Positions 529 through 16,767 of a DNA stretch of 40,390 nt are shown one piece after another. The stretch's first letter is position 1, and every line of letters begins with the position of its first letter. Source of the DNA: a virus. The notes under the pieces are model-generated. The model saw only the letters and a program-made list of their open reading frames with translations. It made no database searches and was not told the origin of the DNA. The translations under genes were made by a program, and so were the position numbers. Location of the stretch: positions 1-40,390 of IMG/VR virus record IMGVR_UViG_3300037247_002436; one strand, given 5' to 3'.

Positions 529-1831
529 TATGAGCCTCTTGCAAAAGTACCAACTACAGGTTTCAACCTGTAACATGTTGAAATAATTGAGCTTCACTGG
601 GTTTAGTGGTATTGTTTGGTTGACGCCAAAACAAAACCAAGGATAAATCCAATGAAGCTCACAGACAAGATATCATGGTTGATGGGCCGTGTCCAAAGAA
701 GTCTATTTCCCCATCTTGATGAATGCTTTGACACGCTCCTCACTGAGCAGGAACAACGTCTGGTAACTATGCTCGAGATTGTTCAGGTTGAAAGGTATGT
801 TTCCAAAAAATCGACAACCCAGCGGCTGGGCCGTAAGCTGCTTGTACGGGAAGCCTTGGCCCGGGCATTTGTAGCAAAGGCAGTGTATCGTCTCCCAACG
901 ACCAGTGACTTGATCAGGGCGATTCGAGCAACTAGCAATCTTAGACGTATCTGTGGATTCATCGCCATTGGTGAGATACCGTCGGAGTCCACCTTCTCGC
1001 GTGCCTTTACCGAGTTTGCCGACAGCGGGCTTGGCAATCGAGCACATGATGCCCTGGTGCAGGACTACCTTGCCGGTGAGTTGATTGGCCATATCAGTCG
1101 GGATTCTACCGCCATTGTTGGCCGAGAGAAACCCACCCAAAAGGTGAAAAAACCCAAGATGCCACGCAAGAGAGGCCGTCCTGCCAAAGGTGAACAACGG
1201 GAGCCGGTTGTCGAGAAACGACTTGATCGTCAGGTTGGTCAGTCCGCAGCAGAGGCCATCCGAGAACTGCCATTCGCCTGCGACCGAGGCACCAAGAAGA
1301 ATGCCAAAGGATACAAAACGTCCTGGAACGGGTACAAGCTGCATCTGGACATCAATGATGTGGGTCTGCCAATCAGTGCTTACGACGCTCGGCTTATTAA
1401 CGAAACAAGTCGACAGTTTGAGCATGTGCCGATTATTGATAAAAACTCGCGCGGCAGAGAGGTTATTCCGATGGCACCCCACGAAGCAGAGCGCTACAAA
1501 GTAAGGACATCTGTAGAACAGGCCAATGGCCGACTAAAAGAAGACTTCGGAGCCGACAACGTCATGGTGAAGGGGCACAGCAAGGTAAACCAGCACCTGA
1601 TGTTTGGGGTCATCGTTTTATTTGCTGATCAGCTCATACGGCTGCTTGTATAGATTCTCAAAGACCGGACACAACATAAAACACGGGAGACGTGCGCCCA
1701 TGTTGCCATAGTATTCCATGAAAACTCAGCAAAAAGGACCAACAGAGAGGTCGGCTGGCCCGTTTAGCAGGCTGACCTCAACAGCTAACTGATTGTCCCT
1801 CTTAAGCTGAACATTTTGCAAAAAGCTCCTA
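529..1831 (+). mobile_element. IS1182-like insertion sequence
   Basis: Imperfect terminal inverted repeats frame the transposase gene: 529-546 on the left and 1814-1831 on the right pair over 18 positions with 3 mismatches (core TTGCAAAA). The element is about 1.3 kb, short for the IS1182 family, which fits an internal deletion in the transposase. Its right end abuts an AT-rich palindrome, TATATGGAATTCCATATA (1833-1850). Bases 1654-1811, between the transposase stop and the right repeat, show no gene. Confidence 0.6.
652..1653 (+). CDS. IS1182-family transposase with internal deletion
   Basis: The protein has the N-terminal region typical of IS1182 transposases, then the start of the catalytic domain with the first Asp in the motif RDSTAIVGREKP, a basic linker, and a C-terminal part with PIIDKNSRG and RTSVEQANGRLKEDFG, where the last Glu is the third catalytic residue. 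Near base 1380 the reading passes directly from PISA to YDARLINE. Full-length relatives have about 35-45 residues there, including the region around the second catalytic Asp. The frame stays open, but the enzyme is probably dead. I chose ATG 652, preceded by AAGGAT, over an upstream TTG at 616. Family assignment is good; the size of the deletion is estimated from memory of the family. Confidence 0.75.
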   Translation: MKLTDKISWLMGRVQRSLFPHLDECFDTLLTEQEQRLVTMLEIVQVERYVSKKSTTQRLGRKLLVREALARAFVAKAVYRLPTTSDLIRAIRATSNLRRICGFIAIGEIPSESTFSRAFTEFADSGLGNRAHDALVQDYLAGELIGHISRDSTAIVGREKPTQKVKKPKMPRKRGRPAKGEQREPVVEKRLDRQVGQSAAEAIRELPFACDRGTKKNAKGYKTSWNGYKLHLDINDVGLPISAYDARLINETSRQFEHVPIIDKNSRGREVIPMAPHEAERYKVRTSVEQANGRLKEDFGADNVMVKGHSKVNQHLMFGVIVLFADQLIRLLV

Positions 1832-3114: not shown

Positions 3115-3720
3115 CTATTTTTTAATAACCCCGTTACGTTTACCCACTTTTTGAATTACTTTTAGTTTGTTCATTGCCCATTCTACGGCTGCTGCGTACA
3201 AAGCTGCATCGTCGATATTCTTATTGCAATAATATTCAAGCACTTTGTAGGCGGCTGTGTCGAACATACCGGGCAAGCCGGTGTCTTTACAGCCACGGTT
3301 CCAGATGTACTCTCCTCGCTCCTGAGAATATTCTTTTAAGCTCTTTATCTTCGCGGCATCAAGGAACTCCGGCAGGCTCAACTCTTTTACCTGGGATGTA
3401 ATATTCTTTCTGGCTTCGTCAGGGAGCTTTTCCCACCTCTCCACGATCGCGGCCAGGTCAGGATCGCTAATAGAGAAAGAATGTTCTTCAGCCCCTTCTC
3501 CTAATAATAAACCAACTAGGCTATCACCTTCTTTCCCATATATAAGCCAATCCGTTGAGACTTTATAGCTTCGGCATAGCTCAGCAATAAACGCGCCGTC
3601 CGGCGGGTTGGTGTCGTTTTCGTAGCGCTGGATGGTGTTTCTATTCTTATCAAACTCCCGCCCAAAGACCTCGCGAGACTTTGTTCCCCTTAGTTGTTTT
3701 ATCCTTTCGCCGATGCTCAT
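3115..3720 (-). CDS. XRE/cI-type phage repressor
   Basis: A helix-turn-helix of the XRE class occupies about residues 3-60 (from IGERIKQLRG to VSTDWLIYG). The C-terminal ~140 residues are not a recognisable LexA-like peptidase, so control by RecA-driven self-cleavage is not supported. The gene reads away from the early operon and begins directly at a 19-bp repeat of the operator region, as expected of a repressor that binds there. ATG 3720 (MSIGERI) is preferred; a TTG at 3741 would add seven residues and run into an operator box. It heads a three-gene lysogeny operon. In Mu the equivalent is c, but this protein belongs to the XRE type and is not a Mu c relative. Confidence 0.85.
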   Translation of the reverse strand: MSIGERIKQLRGTKSREVFGREFDKNRNTIQRYENDTNPPDGAFIAELCRSYKVSTDWLIYGKEGDSLVGLLLGEGAEEHSFSISDPDLAAIVERWEKLPDEARKNITSQVKELSLPEFLDAAKIKSLKEYSQERGEYIWNRGCKDTGLPGMFDTAAYKVLEYYCNKNIDDAALYAAAVEWAMNKLKVIQKVGKRNGVIKK

Positions 3721-3911
3721 ATTGCCTAATTTATGGTGCAACCTTCAAGCTCATTAAAGGTTGCGTTATAGGTTGCGCGCCACCTACACAACTGCCCTCT
3801 GGGTAATCCTTTGAAATTCCGTCTAAAAACAGGGGAGGCTCAGATTACAGGCAAAAAACTGTAGGTTGCACGGTATTTGAGGTTGCATTGCCTCATTTAT
3901 GGTGCTATAAA
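3721..3911 (+). promoter_or_regulatory. Operator region and early promoter
   Basis: Five AGGTTGC boxes are present: one inverted at 3738-3744, and direct copies at 3758-3764, 3770-3776, 3863-3869 and 3880-3886. A 19-bp direct repeat (ATTGCCTnATTTATGGTGC) lies at 3721-3739 and 3887-3905. The second copy fills the spacer of a strong sigma70-like promoter, with TTGCAT at 3883-3888, a 17-base gap and TATAAA at 3906-3911. A box overlaps its -35. The first copy abuts the repressor start codon. The layout fits repressor control of both directions. An inverted repeat ATGACAT...ATGTCAT follows at about 3910-3937. No gene is seen in the rest of 3912-4019. Confidence 0.65.
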
Positions 3912-7891: not shown

Positions 7892-8590
7892 ATGAGAAAG
7901 GTGTTTGCAAGAACCAAAAATGTGGTCCGGTTTTATGCCGGGATGGAGGCGGTCGAGAATCCGGCCCAGGGACGGATCGGGATGGTGCTCCTGGAGGGCG
8001 ATCCCGGTACCGGTAAAACCGAGGTAGCCCAGAAATACGCGGCCGATAACGAGAGCTGCATCTATGTCCGGGCCACGGATATCATGACCCGGCGCAGCCT
8101 GCTGTCGGCGATTGTCGGTGAACTGGGCGAGGCCCCGCAATTCCGCTCCGACGATCTCTTTGCCCAGATCCTCGATCAGCTTCTGGAACGGCCCCGCACC
8201 ATAATCGTCGATGAGGTCGATTATCTGGTCAAGGACGGCATGGTCGAGGTCCTGCGGGACATCAACGATATGACCAACTGCCCGGTCGTGATGGTGGGCA
8301 TGCATATGATCAGCAAGAAACTGCAACGGTTCCGCCATCTATACGACCGGTTCACCTCGGTAATCCGCTTCAAACTTTTCGACCGGGCCGATATCGAGCA
8401 AATCGCCAAACAGATCTGCGAGACCCCGATCACCGACGCCGGGCTGCAATTTATTCTGGAGCGGGGCCAGGGCAAGTTTCGCCGGACGATGGTCTGGTTT
8501 GCCAGGGCCGAACGGTTGGCTAAGCATAACAGCCTGGCCGAGATCGGGATCGAGCATCTGCGCAAGGTCAAGGATGGTGGCGGCAGATGA
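7892..8590 (+). CDS. B: MuB-like AAA ATPase, transposition target selection
   Basis: MuB-type proteins bind target DNA with ATP, deliver it to the transposase and give target immunity. This 232-residue protein has a Walker A motif GDPGTGKT (36-43), a Walker B motif TIIVDEVD (103-110) and a sensor-like region with VVMVGMHM. A C-terminal helical part with GKFRRTMVWFARAE matches the MuB/TniB-type lid. It is shorter than Mu B (312) and lacks the N-terminal HTH domain, as in many B3-like and other Mu-like phages. A strong AAAGGAG precedes the ATG. The stop overlaps the next gene by four bases. Confidence 0.9.
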   Translation: MRKVFARTKNVVRFYAGMEAVENPAQGRIGMVLLEGDPGTGKTEVAQKYAADNESCIYVRATDIMTRRSLLSAIVGELGEAPQFRSDDLFAQILDQLLERPRTIIVDEVDYLVKDGMVEVLRDINDMTNCPVVMVGMHMISKKLQRFRHLYDRFTSVIRFKLFDRADIEQIAKQICETPITDAGLQFILERGQGKFRRTMVWFARAERLAKHNSLAEIGIEHLRKVKDGGGR

Positions 8591-9087: not shown

Positions 9088-9410
9088 GCGAAGGCTGGTT
9101 AAAGATCCTCAAACAGCAGGTCGAGGCCAAGGGGGCTGCGGCGGTGGCCCGTGAGGTCGGGATTTCACCGGCCTCTCTGTCACTGGTCCTGGCCGGGAAG
9201 TATCCGGCAAAGACCGACAATGTCGAGCGCAAGGTTATTGCTATTTATGGCAGCGCCTCGGGGCTGGTCAACTGCCCGCTCCTGGGCGAGATCGAGCCCG
9301 CCGCCTGCGCCCAAAACTTTAACTTGGCCAAGAAAATCGGAGTTCGATGCGGTAATCCGGCCACTTTAAAGCTCTATAAAACGTGTATTAAATGTGCAGT
9401 CAGAAACTAG
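9084..9410 (+). CDS. Small HTH protein with Cys cluster
   Basis: The 108-residue protein begins with an HTH of the lambda-repressor/LacI type (KGAAAVAREVGISPASLSLVLAGKYP), followed by a region with spaced cysteines (NCPLLGEIEPAACAQ..., C-terminal CGNP and TCIKCAV) that may bind zinc. This layout recurs in the early operons of Mu-like phages of proteobacteria. AAGGAGG lies ahead of the ATG, and the gene overlaps the previous one (ATGA). A palindromic repeat starts directly after its TAG stop, so that insertion may have set the C-terminus. Confidence 0.75.
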   Translation: MSEGWLKILKQQVEAKGAAAVAREVGISPASLSLVLAGKYPAKTDNVERKVIAIYGSASGLVNCPLLGEIEPAACAQNFNLAKKIGVRCGNPATLKLYKTCIKCAVRN

Positions 9411-9989: not shown

Positions 9990-10619
9990 ATGGCTGATAA
10001 AAAAAAGAACGGCGATTGGATCGATTCAATGGGTGCGGCAATACCGCCCCGACATATCAAGAAGATCGATAAAAAACGTGATGCCATGGTAGAGCGGCTG
10101 TTTAAAAAGGCCGAGGCAATCCATCCAAAATTGGTGGGACTCCGGACAGGGATTGACCAACAGGTTGATGCCTTTCTGGACGCCTCTGCAGCCGATGCCG
10201 GAGTTGGTTGTAACAACCCCGGCGGCAACTATACCTTTCCAAACTTTTCGGGCAACAGGCGGTTGATGATCAAGACCAATGCCTGCATCGATTTCGATGA
10301 GCGGCTCCAGTTCGCCAAAGCAAAGATCGACTCCTGCTTAGAGCGCTGGAGCGAGGGCGGCGATCCTAATTTAAAGGCCGTTGTCTTTGATGCCTTCCAG
10401 GTTGATCTCAAAGGCCGGGTGGATATCAAGCGGATCCTGCGCCTCCGGAAACTCTTGATTAAAGACCGGGTTTGGCGGGAGGCCATGGAGCTGATCACTG
10501 AGGCGATCACCATCACCGGCCGCAAGACCTACTGCCATTTTCAGTTCCGCAAAAACCGGACCAGTGAATGGGAGACGATCCGGTTGGATCTGGCCGGGGT
10601 GTCGGGAGACGTGGAATGA
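9990..10619 (+). CDS. DUF3164 phage protein
   Basis: The 209-residue sequence matches the DUF3164 family, which is common in the early region of Mu-like phages. The N-terminus WIDSMGAAIPPRHIKKIDKK matches the family start (W-D-x-x-G-x-x-V/I-P), and a C-terminal helical block follows with FDERLQFAKAKIDSCLERW and VDIKRILRLRKLLI. The biochemical role of the family is not known to me. The last four bases overlap the start of the zinc-ribbon gene behind it. Confidence 0.85.
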   Translation: MADKKKNGDWIDSMGAAIPPRHIKKIDKKRDAMVERLFKKAEAIHPKLVGLRTGIDQQVDAFLDASAADAGVGCNNPGGNYTFPNFSGNRRLMIKTNACIDFDERLQFAKAKIDSCLERWSEGGDPNLKAVVFDAFQVDLKGRVDIKRILRLRKLLIKDRVWREAMELITEAITITGRKTYCHFQFRKNRTSEWETIRLDLAGVSGDVE

Positions 10620-11173: not shown

Positions 11174-11716
11174 ATGAAACAGACCTGCCCCGGTTGCGGG
11201 ATGATATGCGGCGCTGAGGCCTGGGCCAACGACACCACCCAGCGCGAAACCCTGGCAGTGGTGGTTAAGCTGCCCCAGCCGTTGCCCGAGGTGGCCTTTT
11301 CCTACTTGTCCCTGTTCCGCCCGGCTAAATCGTCATTGTCCTGGAGCAAGGCCAAACGGGTGGCGGGTGAACTGGCCAAGCTGGTCGCGACCGGCCATAT
11401 CCAGGTGGATAGCCGCCCGGCCCGGCCCTGTCCCGCTTCGGTTTGGAAGAAGGCCATCGAGGAGATGCTGGACCGCCGCGACCGGCTGAGCAGGCCGTTG
11501 AAAAACCACAACTATCTGCGCCAGGTGGCCTACGATCTGGCCGACCAGGTCGATGCCCATAATGAAAAGACCCGGGAAGCGCAGCACCGCACCGCCAGCC
11601 GGATCAGCAAAGACCACGGCCAGCTTGATCGGGCCACCTACCAAGCCCTGAGCGACAAAGACAAACAATTCCTGCCGGAAAGTGTCCGGGCCAGGTTCGA
11701 GGAGGGTGAAGGATGA
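11174..11716 (+). CDS. Conserved Mu-like phage protein before GemA
   Basis: The 180-residue protein starts with a zinc knuckle-like CPGCGMICG. A conserved block follows (LPEVAFSYLSLFRPAKSSLSWSKAKRVAGELAKL, then VWKKAIEEMLDRRD, then PLKNHNYLRQVAYDLAD) that I know from many Mu-like phages in this position, without an assigned role. The C-terminus is charged. It overlaps the GemA start by four bases. It may take part in early replication or host control; that is inference from context. Confidence 0.75.
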   Translation: MKQTCPGCGMICGAEAWANDTTQRETLAVVVKLPQPLPEVAFSYLSLFRPAKSSLSWSKAKRVAGELAKLVATGHIQVDSRPARPCPASVWKKAIEEMLDRRDRLSRPLKNHNYLRQVAYDLADQVDAHNEKTREAQHRTASRISKDHGQLDRATYQALSDKDKQFLPESVRARFEEGEG

Positions 11717-12225
11717 CAAACAACCGACCCGGCCGCAACGAACTGGCCAAGATCCATATTGCCATCAAGCAACTTGGTATCAGCGACGATGATTATCGGC
11801 AACTCCTTTTCAACCGTTATAAAAAGCGGTCCGCCGCCAAGATCACCCTCCATCAGTCCTGGGACCTGTTGGCCCATTTCAAGAAGCTGGGTTTTCGGGC
11901 CAAGCCGCCGGGCGCAGCCAGGACGTCCCGAGCGCCGGGCGATCCCCAGTCCCGGAAGATCCGGGCCTTATGGATTACCCTGGCCCATGGCGGGGCAGTC
12001 AGGAACCCGGCTGAATCGGCCTTGAATAAGTATTGCAAGAGGATGGTCGGGGTCGAGGCCCTGGCCTTTGCGACCACGGGGATGAAGGCCCGGTTGATTG
12101 AGCATCTTAAAGTGTGGCAGAACCGGGATTTACTGGAGACTTGCGGCTGGATGCTGTGCTGCCTGGATATCCGTCTCACCAAACACGGACATAAATGGAT
12201 CATGGAATGGCTGAGCAAACCTTAA
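11713..12225 (+). CDS. gemA: GemA / Mu gp16 family (DUF1018)
   Basis: The 170-residue protein matches GemA-type regulators. The first domain has NELAKIHIAIKQLGISDDDYRQLLFN and a helix ending in HFKKLGFRAK; the second has SRKIRALWITLAHGGAVRNPAESALNKYCKRMVGVE. In Mu, GemA affects host gene expression and DNA supercoiling. Position just ahead of Mor is the same as in Mu. Start ATG 11713 overlaps the upstream stop. The gene is complete and looks functional. Confidence 0.9.
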   Translation: MTNNRPGRNELAKIHIAIKQLGISDDDYRQLLFNRYKKRSAAKITLHQSWDLLAHFKKLGFRAKPPGAARTSRAPGDPQSRKIRALWITLAHGGAVRNPAESALNKYCKRMVGVEALAFATTGMKARLIEHLKVWQNRDLLETCGWMLCCLDIRLTKHGHKWIMEWLSKP

Positions 12226-12578: not shown

Positions 12579-13076
12579 TTATTGTCGAGAAATACGGCGA
12601 AGGTAGTAGAATCCACCATCAGTTTCCACACTCAAGTCGCCGAATTCCTGCACAGCTGTCTGTGGCTCAAGGCGCTTGGCCTTTATCAGCAGGTCGCTGG
12701 CCACGGCCTCCGGTTTTGTGAGGACGTTGCGGAGAACCTGGATGAAGAATTTATGACAGAAAGAGTTGTCTCGTACAAGGCTGGCGTAACTCCCATCTGG
12801 ATTGTACTCCATGCAGTACCAGCCGACTAAATCCGCATCCGATTGGATGTTCCCTATGATTTCAAAAGACGAGTTTTCGGCCCCGGCAATTTTCCAGAGT
12901 TGTTTCGTGCGACCATTGCCGCTTTGGGTTGTTTGATGTTGTTCCAGCGGCAAGCCTTTGATGATTGAGTCAGCTGCAATTCTGTCGGTGAGCAAAACCG
13001 CAGATGATTGTCCGGGCTGGTTATTGGAACAAGCCGTCATAACTAAAACAAAAGCGAGTATGTAGATGTTCTTCAT
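12579..13076 (-). CDS. Lipoprotein, lysogenic accessory gene
   Basis: A typical lipoprotein signal (MKNIYILAFVLVMTAC, lipobox Cys16) precedes a ~150-residue polar domain with no recognised fold. ATG 13076 has GGAGAAAAG directly upstream; an earlier ATG at 13100 is less likely. The minus strand and its own promoter mean it can be expressed in the lysogen. It should be exported and lipid-anchored, perhaps facing the periplasm or outer surface, where superinfection-exclusion lipoproteins of phages act. That role is only inferred. It shares the intergenic region with the C4 RNA promoter. Confidence 0.75.
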   Translation of the reverse strand: MKNIYILAFVLVMTACSNNQPGQSSAVLLTDRIAADSIIKGLPLEQHQTTQSGNGRTKQLWKIAGAENSSFEIIGNIQSDADLVGWYCMEYNPDGSYASLVRDNSFCHKFFIQVLRNVLTKPEAVASDLLIKAKRLEPQTAVQEFGDLSVETDGGFYYLRRISRQ

Positions 13077-13125
13077 CTTTTCTCCATATAAATTTTCCAA
13101 ACATCAATCGGTAGAACGAGTGCCT

Positions 13126-13161: not shown

Positions 13162-13191
13162 TTGACAAGCGTCCGCCGGTTGGGCTATCTT
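13162..13191 (+). promoter_or_regulatory. Promoter of the C4-like RNA and rha
   Basis: TTGACA (13162-13167), an 18-base spacer and TATCTT (13186-13191) predict transcription from about 13198, directly at the base of the C4-like RNA fold. It is back-to-back with the lipoprotein promoter, so the two may interfere. Confidence 0.65.
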
Positions 13192-13197
13192 TTCCTT

Positions 13198-13278
13198 GCC
13201 ACTGACATATCAGTGGCCGGGTTTGACGGCCCGAATTCAAGGCGGACACTCCGCCCCAGCATTACCGGCGGTTTTTTT
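13198..13278 (+). ncRNA. c4: C4-like antisense RNA
   Basis: The predicted ~80-base transcript holds a hairpin CCACTGA/TCAGTGG (13199-13216), the stretch GCCGGGTTTGACGGC, a hairpin GGCGGACACTCCGCC (13241-13255) and a terminal CCGGCGGTTTTTTT. This is the layout of C4 RNAs in P1/P7 and P4-like phages. Segment 13216-13242 is complementary to 13339-13362 downstream: 22 paired positions with two mismatches and three bulged bases. C4 RNAs silence the antirepressor transcript behind them by pairing with such a target. The identity is from recognition of the motif plus the visible complementarity; no covariance search was run. Confidence 0.75.
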
Positions 13279-13302
13279 GTGTTCGTTGCATGGCACCTTT
13301 TT

Positions 13303-13380
13303 GGGCGACCATGCGGGAGGCCTTATGGCCTGCCGGTTCCTTGATCCGGTCCGTCAACCCGCATGGTTCGCCCTTTTTTT
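13303..13380 (+). terminator. Terminator hairpin carrying the C4 target
   Basis: The arms GGGCGACCATGCGGG (13303-13317) and CCCGCATGGTTCGCCC (13358-13373) pair with one bulge and are followed by seven T. The C4-complementary target (13339-13362) lies in the 3' half of the loop and runs into the right arm. A short frame (13196-13417) crosses the region and could be the Icd-like leader peptide known from P1 immI, but this is unproven. Antirepressor expression requires reading through this structure. Confidence 0.65.
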
Positions 13381-13441
13381 ATGCGAATTGACGGCGCAAA
13401 GGGGCGATGATTTTTAATTCTCATCTCAAGGAGACAGCATT

Positions 13442-14029
13442 ATGCACGAATTAGTCACCGTTATAAACGGTACCACTCTCACCGACACCCTCATCATTGC
13501 CGAGGGTGCGGAAACCACCCATGAAGCCGTTATTAAATTAGTCAGAAGATACATATCTGATCTTGAAGAAGTAGGGCAAAGGGTCGGATTTGAAATCCGA
13601 CCCTTTGAGACTTCCGGAGGTACACAAAACCGAGAAATTGCTCTGCTGAATGAGCCCCAGGCAACCCTTCTGTTCACCTTCATGAAAAACACTGATATTG
13701 TCCGTGCATTCAAAGTGAAACTGGTCAAAGCCTTTTACGCAATGAGACAGCTAGCCCCGGCAGGCATGATGCTTGTGGATAGAAACTACTTTGAAAGCCT
13801 CTTGAAAAACAGCGGTCTGCTGGAAGAAAACAGCCAGCTACTTAAACAACTGTTGGAAAACGCAGAAAACCAAACATCCCGGCGCGTCAATTTTACCCCG
13901 GAAGAAGATGTTCTGGTCCTGAAGCTGCATGATCAGGGGCTGAGCCCGAATAAAATAGGCAAGCGGATAGGCCGGGTAAAGGGATCGGTTAGATCATGCC
14001 TCCGTCGTTTAGGGAGGATCGGATCATGA
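13442..14029 (+). CDS. Rha/Ant-type antirepressor
   Basis: The first ~100 residues are a Rha-family phage regulatory domain: a helix with ETTHEAVIKLVRRYISDLEEVG, the block GFEIRPFETSGGTQNREIALLNEPQATLLF, and VRAFKVKLVKAFYAMR. After a coiled linker (YFESLLKNSGLLEENSQLLKQLLEN) the C-terminus has a Myb/homeodomain-like HTH (FTPEEDVLVLKLHDQGLSP, IGRVKGSVRSCLRRLG). In P1, Ant proteins with an N-terminal domain of this type inactivate phage repressors. AAGGAG lies nine bases before the ATG. The gene follows a C4-like RNA, so it is likely silent in the lysogen and expressed upon induction. Confidence 0.85.
   Translation: MHELVTVINGTTLTDTLIIAEGAETTHEAVIKLVRRYISDLEEVGQRVGFEIRPFETSGGTQNREIALLNEPQATLLFTFMKNTDIVRAFKVKLVKAFYAMRQLAPAGMMLVDRNYFESLLKNSGLLEENSQLLKQLLENAENQTSRRVNFTPEEDVLVLKLHDQGLSPNKIGKRIGRVKGSVRSCLRRLGRIGS
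13577..13607 (+). repeat. Perfect 15-bp inverted repeat inside rha
   Basis: CAAAGGGTCGGATTT is followed, one base later, by its exact reverse complement. The hairpin is inside codons for the GQRVGFEIRPFE segment. It could pause ribosomes or polymerase, or be a protein-binding site. Confidence 0.6.
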
Positions 14030-14238
14030 ACAAAACCGATCTTGACGTTAACATTGCTGCCAACCTCCGCGAAACCGTGCTGCATGAAAAACCGCTCTGG
14101 CGGGACATTCTCACCTGTAAGGGACTTGGCTTCAGCGAACCCATGACCGCCAGAACTTGCGGCTGCAAACTAACCACCTTGCGTAAGCACCTGCACCGCA
14201 TGGCGGAGTGCGGCTTTGCGTTAGAGGGGGTGCAATAA
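14026..14238 (+). CDS. Small winged-helix-like protein
   Basis: The 70-residue protein starts at an ATG that overlaps the rha stop (ATGA) with GGAGGATC upstream. Its centre, LGFSEPMTARTCGCKLTTLRKHLHRMAECGFAL, reads as a winged helix with a recognition helix TLRKHLHRMAE. It is coupled to rha and to the next gene, so the three form a short operon under the C4-controlled promoter. It may be a regulator of the lytic switch; no family name is known to me. Confidence 0.7.
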   Translation: MNKTDLDVNIAANLRETVLHEKPLWRDILTCKGLGFSEPMTARTCGCKLTTLRKHLHRMAECGFALEGVQ

Positions 14239-14453
14239 TGACTACCGCTAAAGCGATCTTCGCCTTCGGCTCCGACAACCCTGCCGACCTGCTGGTTAAC
14301 GCCGCCGCTGTCACCTGTTTTTTAGGGAATGTGGCGGTGAATCTGCACAATGAGGGGAGGGAGCCAGGTATCTCACAAGAGGGTTGCCAGGGTCTCTGCC
14401 AGATTCTGGCCGTGGTTGAAAACACGATTAACGAGGCTTTAAACAGACTATAA
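14238..14453 (+). CDS. Small hypothetical protein
   Basis: The 71-residue protein starts at TAATG, overlapping the upstream stop. It is short and helical, with AAAVTCFLGNVAVNLHNEG and a C-terminal LAVVENTINEAL helix, and no metal site or signal. It is the last gene of the rha operon and ends just before a terminator hairpin. The size and sequence resemble small helper proteins next to antirepressors, but its function is unknown. Confidence 0.65.
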   Translation: MTTAKAIFAFGSDNPADLLVNAAAVTCFLGNVAVNLHNEGREPGISQEGCQGLCQILAVVENTINEALNRL

Positions 14454-14456
14454 AAA

Positions 14457-14490
14457 AAGCGCCTCCCGGAGATGACTTCGGGAGGCGCTT
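14457..14490 (-). terminator. Terminator for the AbiGi gene
   Basis: A 12-bp perfect stem (AAGCGCCTCCCG with CGGGAGGCGCTT) has a 10-base loop. On the minus strand it is followed by a run of T (A-run 14452-14458 on the plus strand), so it should stop transcripts from the AbiGi gene. It may work partly for the convergent rha operon, although no T-run is on that side. Confidence 0.75.
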
Positions 14491-14558: not shown

Positions 14559-15341
14559 TTAAAAGTTTTCTCTAATGCTTTCCATTGAAATGATCCTGGT
14601 GGTTAATATTTGCACATCTTCATAGGAAAATTTATTTCTTTTAATCTTAATGATTTTATCAAGCATTGATAAAACTTCTTTTTCATTTTTTACTATTATG
14701 AACTTGATGTCATTTGGCACAAATGAAAGCCTTAGTTTTTTCTTTTCACTAATTTTCTTGTTTAAGCCTTCTATTTTAGAAGGTTGGCAATGTTGCTTGT
14801 TTAGCCAAAGTGGTTCCGGCAACTGGCTAGAACTTGGGATATATCTCCATTCTCTTTCGTCATAGAACCGAACATTTTTTTTCGACAATTTCCCTCTATG
14901 CCATAATTTCCCTTCGTACGGTTTAATGTATTGTATTGCGAATTGTAACTCTTTAGTTACGTTGGTTTCTCCATTTTCTTCATGCTCAAATGAAGTTAAT
15001 AATGCCTCTCTCAATTTGTCAGAAAAATCCGCACCTGGGTAAGTATAAAGAACAGGATTAACTTTTTTACTCATAGCCCATTCTTTTGATAAACCTATTG
15101 CATAATCACCATATTTTTCTGTGTGTTTTTTTATTTGTGCTAAAGGTATATCACAAAAACAAACCATAGGAATTGCTTTTTCCGCATCTTCAATGTTTAA
15201 GACGGTGCCAATAAAATTCTCAACAGAAAATCGAGGATAAAAATCATTTATTAAAATACTTTCAAGGTAGTCAATGCTTCGAGTAAAGTGAAATACGGTA
15301 TTTGTACTTATAATACTATCATGCTTATTCACGTTATTCAT
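14559..15341 (-). CDS. AbiGi-family abortive infection protein
   Basis: The 260-residue sequence has the AbiGi family pattern (Pfam AbiGi, putative abortive phage resistance): NTVFHFTRSIDYLESIL at the start, then AIPMVCFCDIPLAQIKKH, YGDYAIGLSKEWAM, NPVLYTYP, and a later FYDEREWRYIP. The family is linked to abortive infection, in which an infected cell stops growing and phage spread is limited. The gene is AT-rich and on the opposite strand to its neighbours, a sign of acquired cargo. It has its own terminator. A 16-bp near-repeat flanks it. No paired toxin/antitoxin gene is next to it unless the gene at 15579 plays that part. Confidence 0.8.
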   Translation of the reverse strand: MNNVNKHDSIISTNTVFHFTRSIDYLESILINDFYPRFSVENFIGTVLNIEDAEKAIPMVCFCDIPLAQIKKHTEKYGDYAIGLSKEWAMSKKVNPVLYTYPGADFSDKLREALLTSFEHEENGETNVTKELQFAIQYIKPYEGKLWHRGKLSKKNVRFYDEREWRYIPSSSQLPEPLWLNKQHCQPSKIEGLNKKISEKKKLRLSFVPNDIKFIIVKNEKEVLSMLDKIIKIKRNKFSYEDVQILTTRIISMESIRENF

Positions 15342-15578: not shown

Positions 15579-16421
15579 CTAGGATTTTCGATTAATCAAT
15601 TCATGGGCTTTACGAGATATTGTCTCAGCCTGGCTTAGCATTTCGTTGCTAAACTCTTCTCCAGATATGATTTTATGCATAGCCTTGAGCATCATGGTTT
15701 CGAGACTATTTGTTAACAACTTAAACTTACCAAATTCTTGATCATCGAAGTGCTCGACCTGCTTTTTCGTGAGGACAGAAGCTATTAAACTTCTAATGCC
15801 TCCATCTTCGTGCCAATTCAACTTTTCAACCTGGTTTACACCTAAATGCATTAGCAATAATGTTCTAAGTGTTATGGCCCGATAAGCATAGAATATAGCC
15901 CAAAGATATTCACCAATATAGGGTCTTATTTTTTCTATTCCGGAGTCCATTTCAATCGCGATTTTCCCAATCTTTTCATAGTTCAACTCTTCGGCCATAG
16001 ATTTCATTTTAGGATTGGTTGCAATAGTTGAATATTCTTCTACACGTAAAACATCAAGATAGATCATTATTGCGGGTGTTTTATTTCGTATTTTTATTAT
16101 GGTCTCCCATATCCTATCTATACTTTCTAGCTTCTTATCAATCGATGCCTTTTGAACTTGATGTAAAGAGGAATGGGCCGCTTTCTGAAGGTTAGAGTCC
16201 TTTTCAACAAGAGAGCGAAGCTCTAATAGCGCAACATCTTGTTCCGCTTTAAGTTTGGCCTGGTAAGCTGTTATTTTTTGGTCATATTCATGTTGGATAC
16301 TGCTTTTTAAGCGTGTACTTATCCATGACTTTGTCAAGAAAATCAATGCCGTCGCTAGTAGCGAACTAACAGCTACAGACGAAAGAATATTTATTACAAA
16401 TAAAGTCAATTCTTGTTCCAT
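15579..16421 (-). CDS. Membrane-anchored coiled-coil protein, unknown
   Basis: The 280-residue protein has one N-terminal membrane helix (about residues 7-30, LFVINILSSVAVSSLLATAL), a coiled coil at ~35-80 (IQHEYDQKITAYQAKLKAEQ), and a long helical C-terminal domain without known motifs. The layout, a membrane anchor followed by a helical sensor-like domain, is common in exclusion and phage-defence proteins. It is AT-rich and minus-strand, and lies behind the AbiGi gene with a 237-base gap (15342-15578) in which I see only AT-rich DNA. It may work with the AbiGi protein or alone; neither can be shown from the sequence. Confidence 0.7.
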   Translation of the reverse strand: MEQELTLFVINILSSVAVSSLLATALIFLTKSWISTRLKSSIQHEYDQKITAYQAKLKAEQDVALLELRSLVEKDSNLQKAAHSSLHQVQKASIDKKLESIDRIWETIIKIRNKTPAIMIYLDVLRVEEYSTIATNPKMKSMAEELNYEKIGKIAIEMDSGIEKIRPYIGEYLWAIFYAYRAITLRTLLLMHLGVNQVEKLNWHEDGGIRSLIASVLTKKQVEHFDDQEFGKFKLLTNSLETMMLKAMHKIISGEEFSNEMLSQAETISRKAHELINRKS

Positions 16422-16592: not shown

Positions 16593-16651
16593 ACCGCAAG
16601 GGCATAAGTTTCATTTGAACCGACAAGCAGTTCAACTCAGCTTTAATCCTT

Positions 16652-16669
16652 CTGAAACACTTCAGCTAA
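16652..16669 (+). promoter_or_regulatory. Candidate late control site upstream of the lysis operon
   Basis: CTGAAACACTTCAGCTAA includes the dyad CTGAA-ACAC-TTCAG. An identical 18-mer lies at 24190-24207 ahead of the protease gene. These are the places of Plys and PI in Mu, so both may bind a late activator of the Mor/C type. Confidence 0.45.
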
Positions 16670-16767
16670 TATCCTCCTGACCAGTCCGTTACGTTGTCTT
16701 CACATTCTTTTTCTCCCCTTGGGTACGGCGGGTCAGGAGGTAACTCCTGGCTCGCCCTTCCTGAATC

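Follow-up and report, generated by a model that had tools for sequence, protein, structure and literature searches.

The cassette at positions 13162-14490 of a Mu-like virus record is quite probably a C4-type riboregulatory immunity module, in which a C4 antisense RNA would repress translation of the gene rha, a short upstream RNA (a1b1) would counter C4 and the Rha protein would oppose the phage repressor. The window that we analysed is the whole 40,390-nt stretch of IMG/VR record IMGVR_UViG_3300037247_002436. We establish here the family membership of the RNAs, both pairing sites, their covariation across loci, their position over the Shine-Dalgarno sequence of rha and the family to which this gene belongs. 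The initial annotation had read the region as the immI/C4 logic of other phages set over Rha in a Mu-like phage, and Rfam, covariation, the antirepressor domain and the upstream Mu transposase, GemA and Mor-like genes all bear this out; the roles that it assigned to the two RNAs, however, were swapped.

Two RNA elements and an antirepressor operon

The cassette comprises the following features:

13162-13191, plus strand: sigma70-type promoter, TTGACA (-35, 13162-13167), 18-nt spacer, TATCTT (-10, 13186-13191); 10 of 12 consensus positions
13198-13278, plus strand: a1b1 RNA, a SeqA/IsrK-like short RNA, with a1 TTGACGG at 13223-13229 and b1 TCAAGG at 13237-13242
13251-13278, plus strand: intrinsic terminator of the a1b1 RNA, CCGCC...GGCGG then T7, from sequence, fold and alignment to the terminator of the isrK model
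13297-13375, plus strand: C4 antisense RNA, with P1 stem 13303-13373, b' loop TCCTTGA 13338-13344 and a' CCGTCAA 13351-13357
13374-13380, plus strand: run of seven U directly 3' of the C4 stem
13388-13394, plus strand: a2 target TTGACGG in the rha leader, 7/7 complement of a'
13426-13432, plus strand: b2 target TCAAGGA, 7/7 complement of b', overlapping the rha Shine-Dalgarno AAGGAG (13428-13433)
13442-14029, plus strand: rha, Rha-family antirepressor/regulator, 195 aa, with a predicted C-terminal helix-turn-helix (HTH); PF09669, E = 7.3e−19; phrog_518 and phrog_63, anti-repressor Ant
14026-14238, plus strand: small gene, 70 aa, no family match, ATGA-coupled to rha at 14026
14238-14453, plus strand: small gene, 71 aa, TAATG-coupled at 14236-14240
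14457-14490, plus strand: terminator hairpin at the operon end, from a terminator scan; fold −29.2 kcal/mol

An Rfam search over the whole window returned only two matches above cut-off, both within the cassette: c4-a1b1 (RF03163) at 13185-13237 (52.5 bits; cut-off 46.7) and C4 (RF01695) at 13297-13375 (51.2 bits; curated cut-off 45). The C4 match had been expected at 13198-13280, where a C4-like fold with a terminator had been described; the folded RNA and its terminator are present at 13198-13278, but Rfam identifies this segment as c4-a1b1, and the C4 model instead finds the second hairpin, which had been taken for a terminator holding the target. That hairpin (13303-13373) is indeed stable, at −46.9 kcal/mol (z = −6.5 against shuffles), and seven U follow it. 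Further, it has the architecture of a C4 RNA, with the RF03163 element upstream and with a long P1 stem, beginning with GGG at 13303-13305, around two hairpins and a' between P3 and P1; the minimum-free-energy fold and the model alignment agree on this arrangement.

The sigma70 promoter stands as first annotated. Its -10 falls inside the span of the c4-a1b1 match, and comparable TTGACA/-10 pairs precede a1b1 in related loci. Together with its terminator, the promoter-proximal RNA (13198-13278) aligns end to end with the isrK model (RF01394, model positions 1-77) at relaxed thresholds (43.6 bits, E = 2.7e−8), which is below the curated cut-off of 50 bits. Given its position and pairing, this RNA may work like IsrK, and we treat it as an a1b1 element, the counterpart of P4 seqA and Gifsy-1 IsrK, without filing it as a member of the isrK family. 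A simple terminator scan missed both RNA terminators owing to its loop limits (the loop of the a1b1 terminator exceeds 8 nt). At least five T directly after the C4 stem were found, among the 44 C4 loci that we compared, only at this locus and at three loci from the class of Geopsychrobacter. Because seven U directly follow it, C4 can also act as a potential intrinsic terminator; its own synthesis could stop in this way, and C4 could serve as a second terminator ahead of rha.

The operon was likewise recognised correctly as rha with two coupled small genes. Rha belongs to PF09669 (Phage_pRha), scoring 68.6 bits against a gathering cut-off of 29.9. The C-terminal HTH that had been called Myb-like is predicted, but the match to the Myb-like domain PF00249 (16.9 bits) stays below its gathering cut-off of 24.4; the AlphaFold model of Rha was poor (pLDDT 50.7). 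With phmmer and a small database, the 71-aa product of the third gene has a homologue in the operon of a relative (L012) and weak matches to C4-controlled small ORFs of two other loci (L258 and L264). Relatives of rha were also found in two viral contigs (L002 and L003), and there is no C4 in their records.

Pairing sites and their covariation

Through a' and b', C4 complements a target that lies around the ribosome-binding site of rha. The a' segment is the exact complement of both a1 and a2, which are identical, and b' complements b1 as well as b2, which share TCAAGG; the rha Shine-Dalgarno lies eight bases before the ATG at 13442. The initial annotation had noted complementarity between the 13198 RNA and a downstream target over 22 positions, and this pairing is real: the RNA forms about 23 pairs with the hairpin at 13303-13373 (duplex −33.5 kcal/mol, with 3 of 1000 dinucleotide shuffles as good). 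The hairpin, however, is C4 itself rather than the target, and a2b2, the predicted functional target at the ribosome-binding site of rha, had gone unnoticed. Since a1b1 repeats the sequence of a2b2 in the same orientation, the 13198 RNA is unable to repress rha and can do no more than compete for C4 and thereby derepress. Folded as a single duplex, the C4 loops and the rha leader reach −20.8 kcal/mol, no better than shuffles (z = −0.7), so what speaks for a2b2 is the pair of exact 7-mers, where they lie and how they covary. We also observed a 15-codon ORF (13407-13454) in another frame that overlaps the rha ribosome-binding site and start; it recalls the leader ORF of the IsrK locus, and its start signal looks weak.

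Covariation was examined in a set of 44 C4 loci drawn from phages, plasmids and genomes, with that of the window among them. The loci carry 21 different a' 7-mers, are not all independent by descent and include four a' assignments set by hand. In this sample, the a' 7-mer of a locus finds its perfect complement upstream in 38/44 loci and downstream in 35/44, against 11/1804 (0.6%) and 5/1804 (0.3%), respectively, of the swapped pairs whose loci differ in a'. Downstream complements of b' of at least 7 nt occur in 84% of own pairings versus 11% of swapped pairs, and most of them lie inside the Shine-Dalgarno. At the level of sequence, this large contrast validates the layout in three parts, and the window is an intact example of it.

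A loose search of genome contigs for the a1b1 pattern gave mostly chance matches, and among the genomes checked true C4 was found only in Kosakonia, Pseudomonas and Pandoraea. One Pseudomonas brassicacearum genome (G057, locus L202) has 38 C4 matches, and the small protein under C4 at a different Pseudomonas locus (L242) has a match to DUF3077 and a weak one to DUF6124. The count in G057, together with L242, suggests a large family of chromosomal C4 cassettes.

A candidate switch and its alternatives

How the cassette is transcribed and processed, in which direction it regulates and what Rha acts on we infer as follows. Transcription would start at the single promoter at 13162 and would mostly end after the a1b1 hairpins. 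Readthrough transcripts would carry C4, freed by processing, by ending at its own U-run or by both, and its a' and b' loops would then pair with a2b2, mask the Shine-Dalgarno and, in the lysogen, silence rha together with the two genes coupled to it. A C4 RNA is cut by RNase P from the longer transcript and persists as a stable RNA of about 77 nt. The a1b1 RNA, with the same target sequence, would compete for C4, and its rising level would favour rha expression; as an antirepressor, Rha would counter the phage repressor (the XRE gene at 3115-3741) and favour lytic growth. That C4 would keep rha translation off is well supported by the pairing sites. A counteraction of C4 by a1b1 is the most likely role of this RNA, from analogy with IsrK and from sequence sense, and the phage repressor is, given the protein family, the most likely opponent of Rha.

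The order of promoter, a1b1, C4, a2b2 and gene is also that of P1, P4 and Gifsy-1, as judged by the Rfam C4 model with the isrK/a1b1 models upstream. In immI of P1/P7, the same promoter, a1b1, C4 and a2b2 on the leader of the first gene precede an antirepressor operon, and P1 matches RF01695 and RF03163. The P1 immI operon holds icd and ant1/ant2 (AntA/AntB type), whereas the window has rha and two unrelated small genes: icd and AntA/AntB-type ant genes are missing from its operon, whose sole products are Phage_pRha and two small proteins that match no family. Further, the P1 C4 has no U-run after it, unlike the C4 of the window. Passages in two papers describe the P1/P7 C4 as processed by RNase P, with b' over the ribosome-binding site and a' providing specificity (PMC5320573, PMC12197685). 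In Gifsy-1 the layout is again as in the window, with IsrK in the a1b1 place and a C4 match of 69.0 bits directly downstream, before the antirepressor; that antirepressor, however, is of the ORF6N type and the phage is lambda-like, whereas the isrK match of the window is below cut-off. IsrK is reported to be homologous in structure to P4 SeqA and to activate the downstream antirepressor gene anrP in trans, and the stable RNA STnc1160 is apparently processed from readthrough downstream of IsrK (PMC4825925). Judged by model matches, P4 CI/seqA, P1 C4/a1b1 and Gifsy-1 STnc1160/IsrK is the same two-part element; the link between P4 and Gifsy-1 was already drawn in PMC4825925. C4-antirepressor loci are also present in the Bordetella phages vB_BaM-IFTN3/IFTN4, and the target gene of IFTN4 is of the Rha family (PF09669, record annotation), as in the window. 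Their a' and b' differ from those of the window, no Mu genes were seen with them, and some related records have an integrase annotated at the match.

The main rival to translational control is a P4-like mode, which we consider rather unlikely. Here C4, by pairing to a1b1/a2b2 on the nascent transcript, would mainly terminate transcription before rha; the C4 stem with its U7 and the a1b1 terminator would dominate, and the block of translation would be secondary. The P4 CI RNA is itself a C4-family match (RF01695, 74.9 bits) with an isrK match upstream (RF01394, 60.8 bits; also an a1b1 match) in the same layout, P4 immunity reportedly operates via termination at seqA/seqC (cited in PMC4825925), and two terminator-like structures follow one another ahead of rha in the window. 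However, b2 lies exactly over the Shine-Dalgarno of rha, which is the first gene, as in translational control. P4 differs from the window in controlling its replication genes, reportedly by transcription termination (PMC4825925).

Less likely again is a main role in trans immunity against other phages with the same a'/b' specificity, to which control of rha would be secondary. The a' CCGTCAA is common to the C4 loci of Pseudomonas phage phiAH14b (L247), a Pseudomonas genome (L226) and two Geopsychrobacter-class loci (L258 and L263), and P1/P7 heteroimmunity depends on this region (PMC5320573, PMC12197685), but b' differs among most of the loci that share this a', and every one of them retains its own target over its own gene. 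The modest bit scores (51-53) might fit degenerate cargo that regulates nothing any more, yet both pairing sites, the promoter, the terminators and an intact rha with its coupled genes are all kept, and we regard such decay as very improbable. Hardly credible at all is the initial reading of the RNA from 13198 as the C4 antisense repressor and of the hairpin at 13303-13373 as its target, which accounts for their complementarity over about 23 pairs but is ruled out as a C4 assignment by Rfam, whose families are reversed, and by sequence sense, this RNA being of the same sense as the rha leader and unable to pair there (duplex no better than shuffles, z = +0.8).

Returning to C4 as a repressor of rha translation, we tentatively hypothesize that in some Mu-like phages C4 may be bifunctional, serving both as a trans-acting antisense RNA and, through its stem plus U7, as an intrinsic terminator that gates its own target operon, with the terminated a1b1 RNA from the same promoter as anti-antisense. 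If so, the threshold between lysis and lysogeny would be set by promoter strength and readthrough alone, and a transposable phage under repressor control would have gained an RNA-only switch.

C4 modules in Mu-like phages

The window is the record of a Mu-like (B3-like) transposable phage. It encodes a transposase A with Mu-transpos_C (Pfam), an AAA/TniB transposition protein and GemA, and its Mu transposase A/B, GemA, Mor-like activator and Mu-type terminase place it among the Mu-like phages. The Mor-like gene has a weak Pfam match (21.4 bits; cut-off 24.9) and a match to phrog_836, late activator (1.1e−11). The terminase is 74% identical to that of Pseudomonas phage B3 and 81% identical to one in a Geopsychrobacter-class genome; the latter value and the likeness of the C4 U-run suggest a host in or near this class. 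Near the left end, before the phage repressor, an ORF judged by eye to be an IS-like transposase (616-1653, plus strand) could be host DNA or else an insertion into the phage end. Three accessory pieces separate the gemA/mor end of the middle region from the lysis/terminase genes, namely a minus-strand gene, the cassette (13162-14490) and two minus-strand genes, of which the AbiGi-like one is likely an anti-phage accessory gene:

12579-13073 (within the span 12579-13100), minus strand: accessory gene without family match, lipoprotein-like start
14559-15341, minus strand: AbiGi-like gene (PF10899, E = 2e−40), adjoining the cassette
15579-16421, minus strand: accessory gene without family match

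C4 with a1b1 upstream was found in 3 other records among the 41 B3-like records searched (G010, G030 and G045), about 3 to 5 kb before the terminase and on the same strand. Their first genes encode Bro-N proteins; the Bro-N frame of G010 is short, which may reflect sequencing error or decay. Prophages in two genomes (G112 and G097) from the class of Geopsychrobacter, the Desulfuromonadia, have Mu transposases and gemA followed by C4, a small ORF and an ORF6N antirepressor. In all five, C4 and a1b1 stand upstream of the terminase and, where checked, after gemA, as in the window, but their targets are Bro-N or a small ORF with ORF6N instead of rha. The C4 module is thus present in at least five other Mu-like phages or prophages (at least six with the window), and none of the ten named transposable phages that we tested, Mu, D3112 and B3 among them, has one. 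The genes under C4 in the window and its relatives carry Rha, Bro-N, KilA-N and ORF6N domains; as read from these loci, the antirepressor domain is swapped while the RNA module stays constant.

A switch of this kind is known from experimental work on P1, P4 and Gifsy-1, and its presence in transposable phages appears to be new. Our literature search found no paper joining C4 antisense RNA with Rha and, among the matches listed, none joining it with Mu-like phages; the one paper found to name both isrK and C4 antisense RNA concerns Xylella vesicle RNAs. With these loci, RNA immunity switches of the C4 class extend to transposable phages of the Mu-like kind, and one RNA module is seen paired with interchangeable antirepressor domains.

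In the whole window, Rfam gave no hammerhead ribozyme above cut-off. Type II hammerhead ribozymes (RF02276) were observed in two Geopsychrobacter-class Mu-like prophage regions (L258, L260; L281, L282), three in each and all on the phage coding strand, and two of those in L281 bracket the C4 module:

L281, minus strand: hammerhead ribozymes at 9105-9180, 10518-10593 and 11898-11969
L282, minus strand: hammerhead ribozymes at 8255-8324, 11647-11733 and 16611-16685
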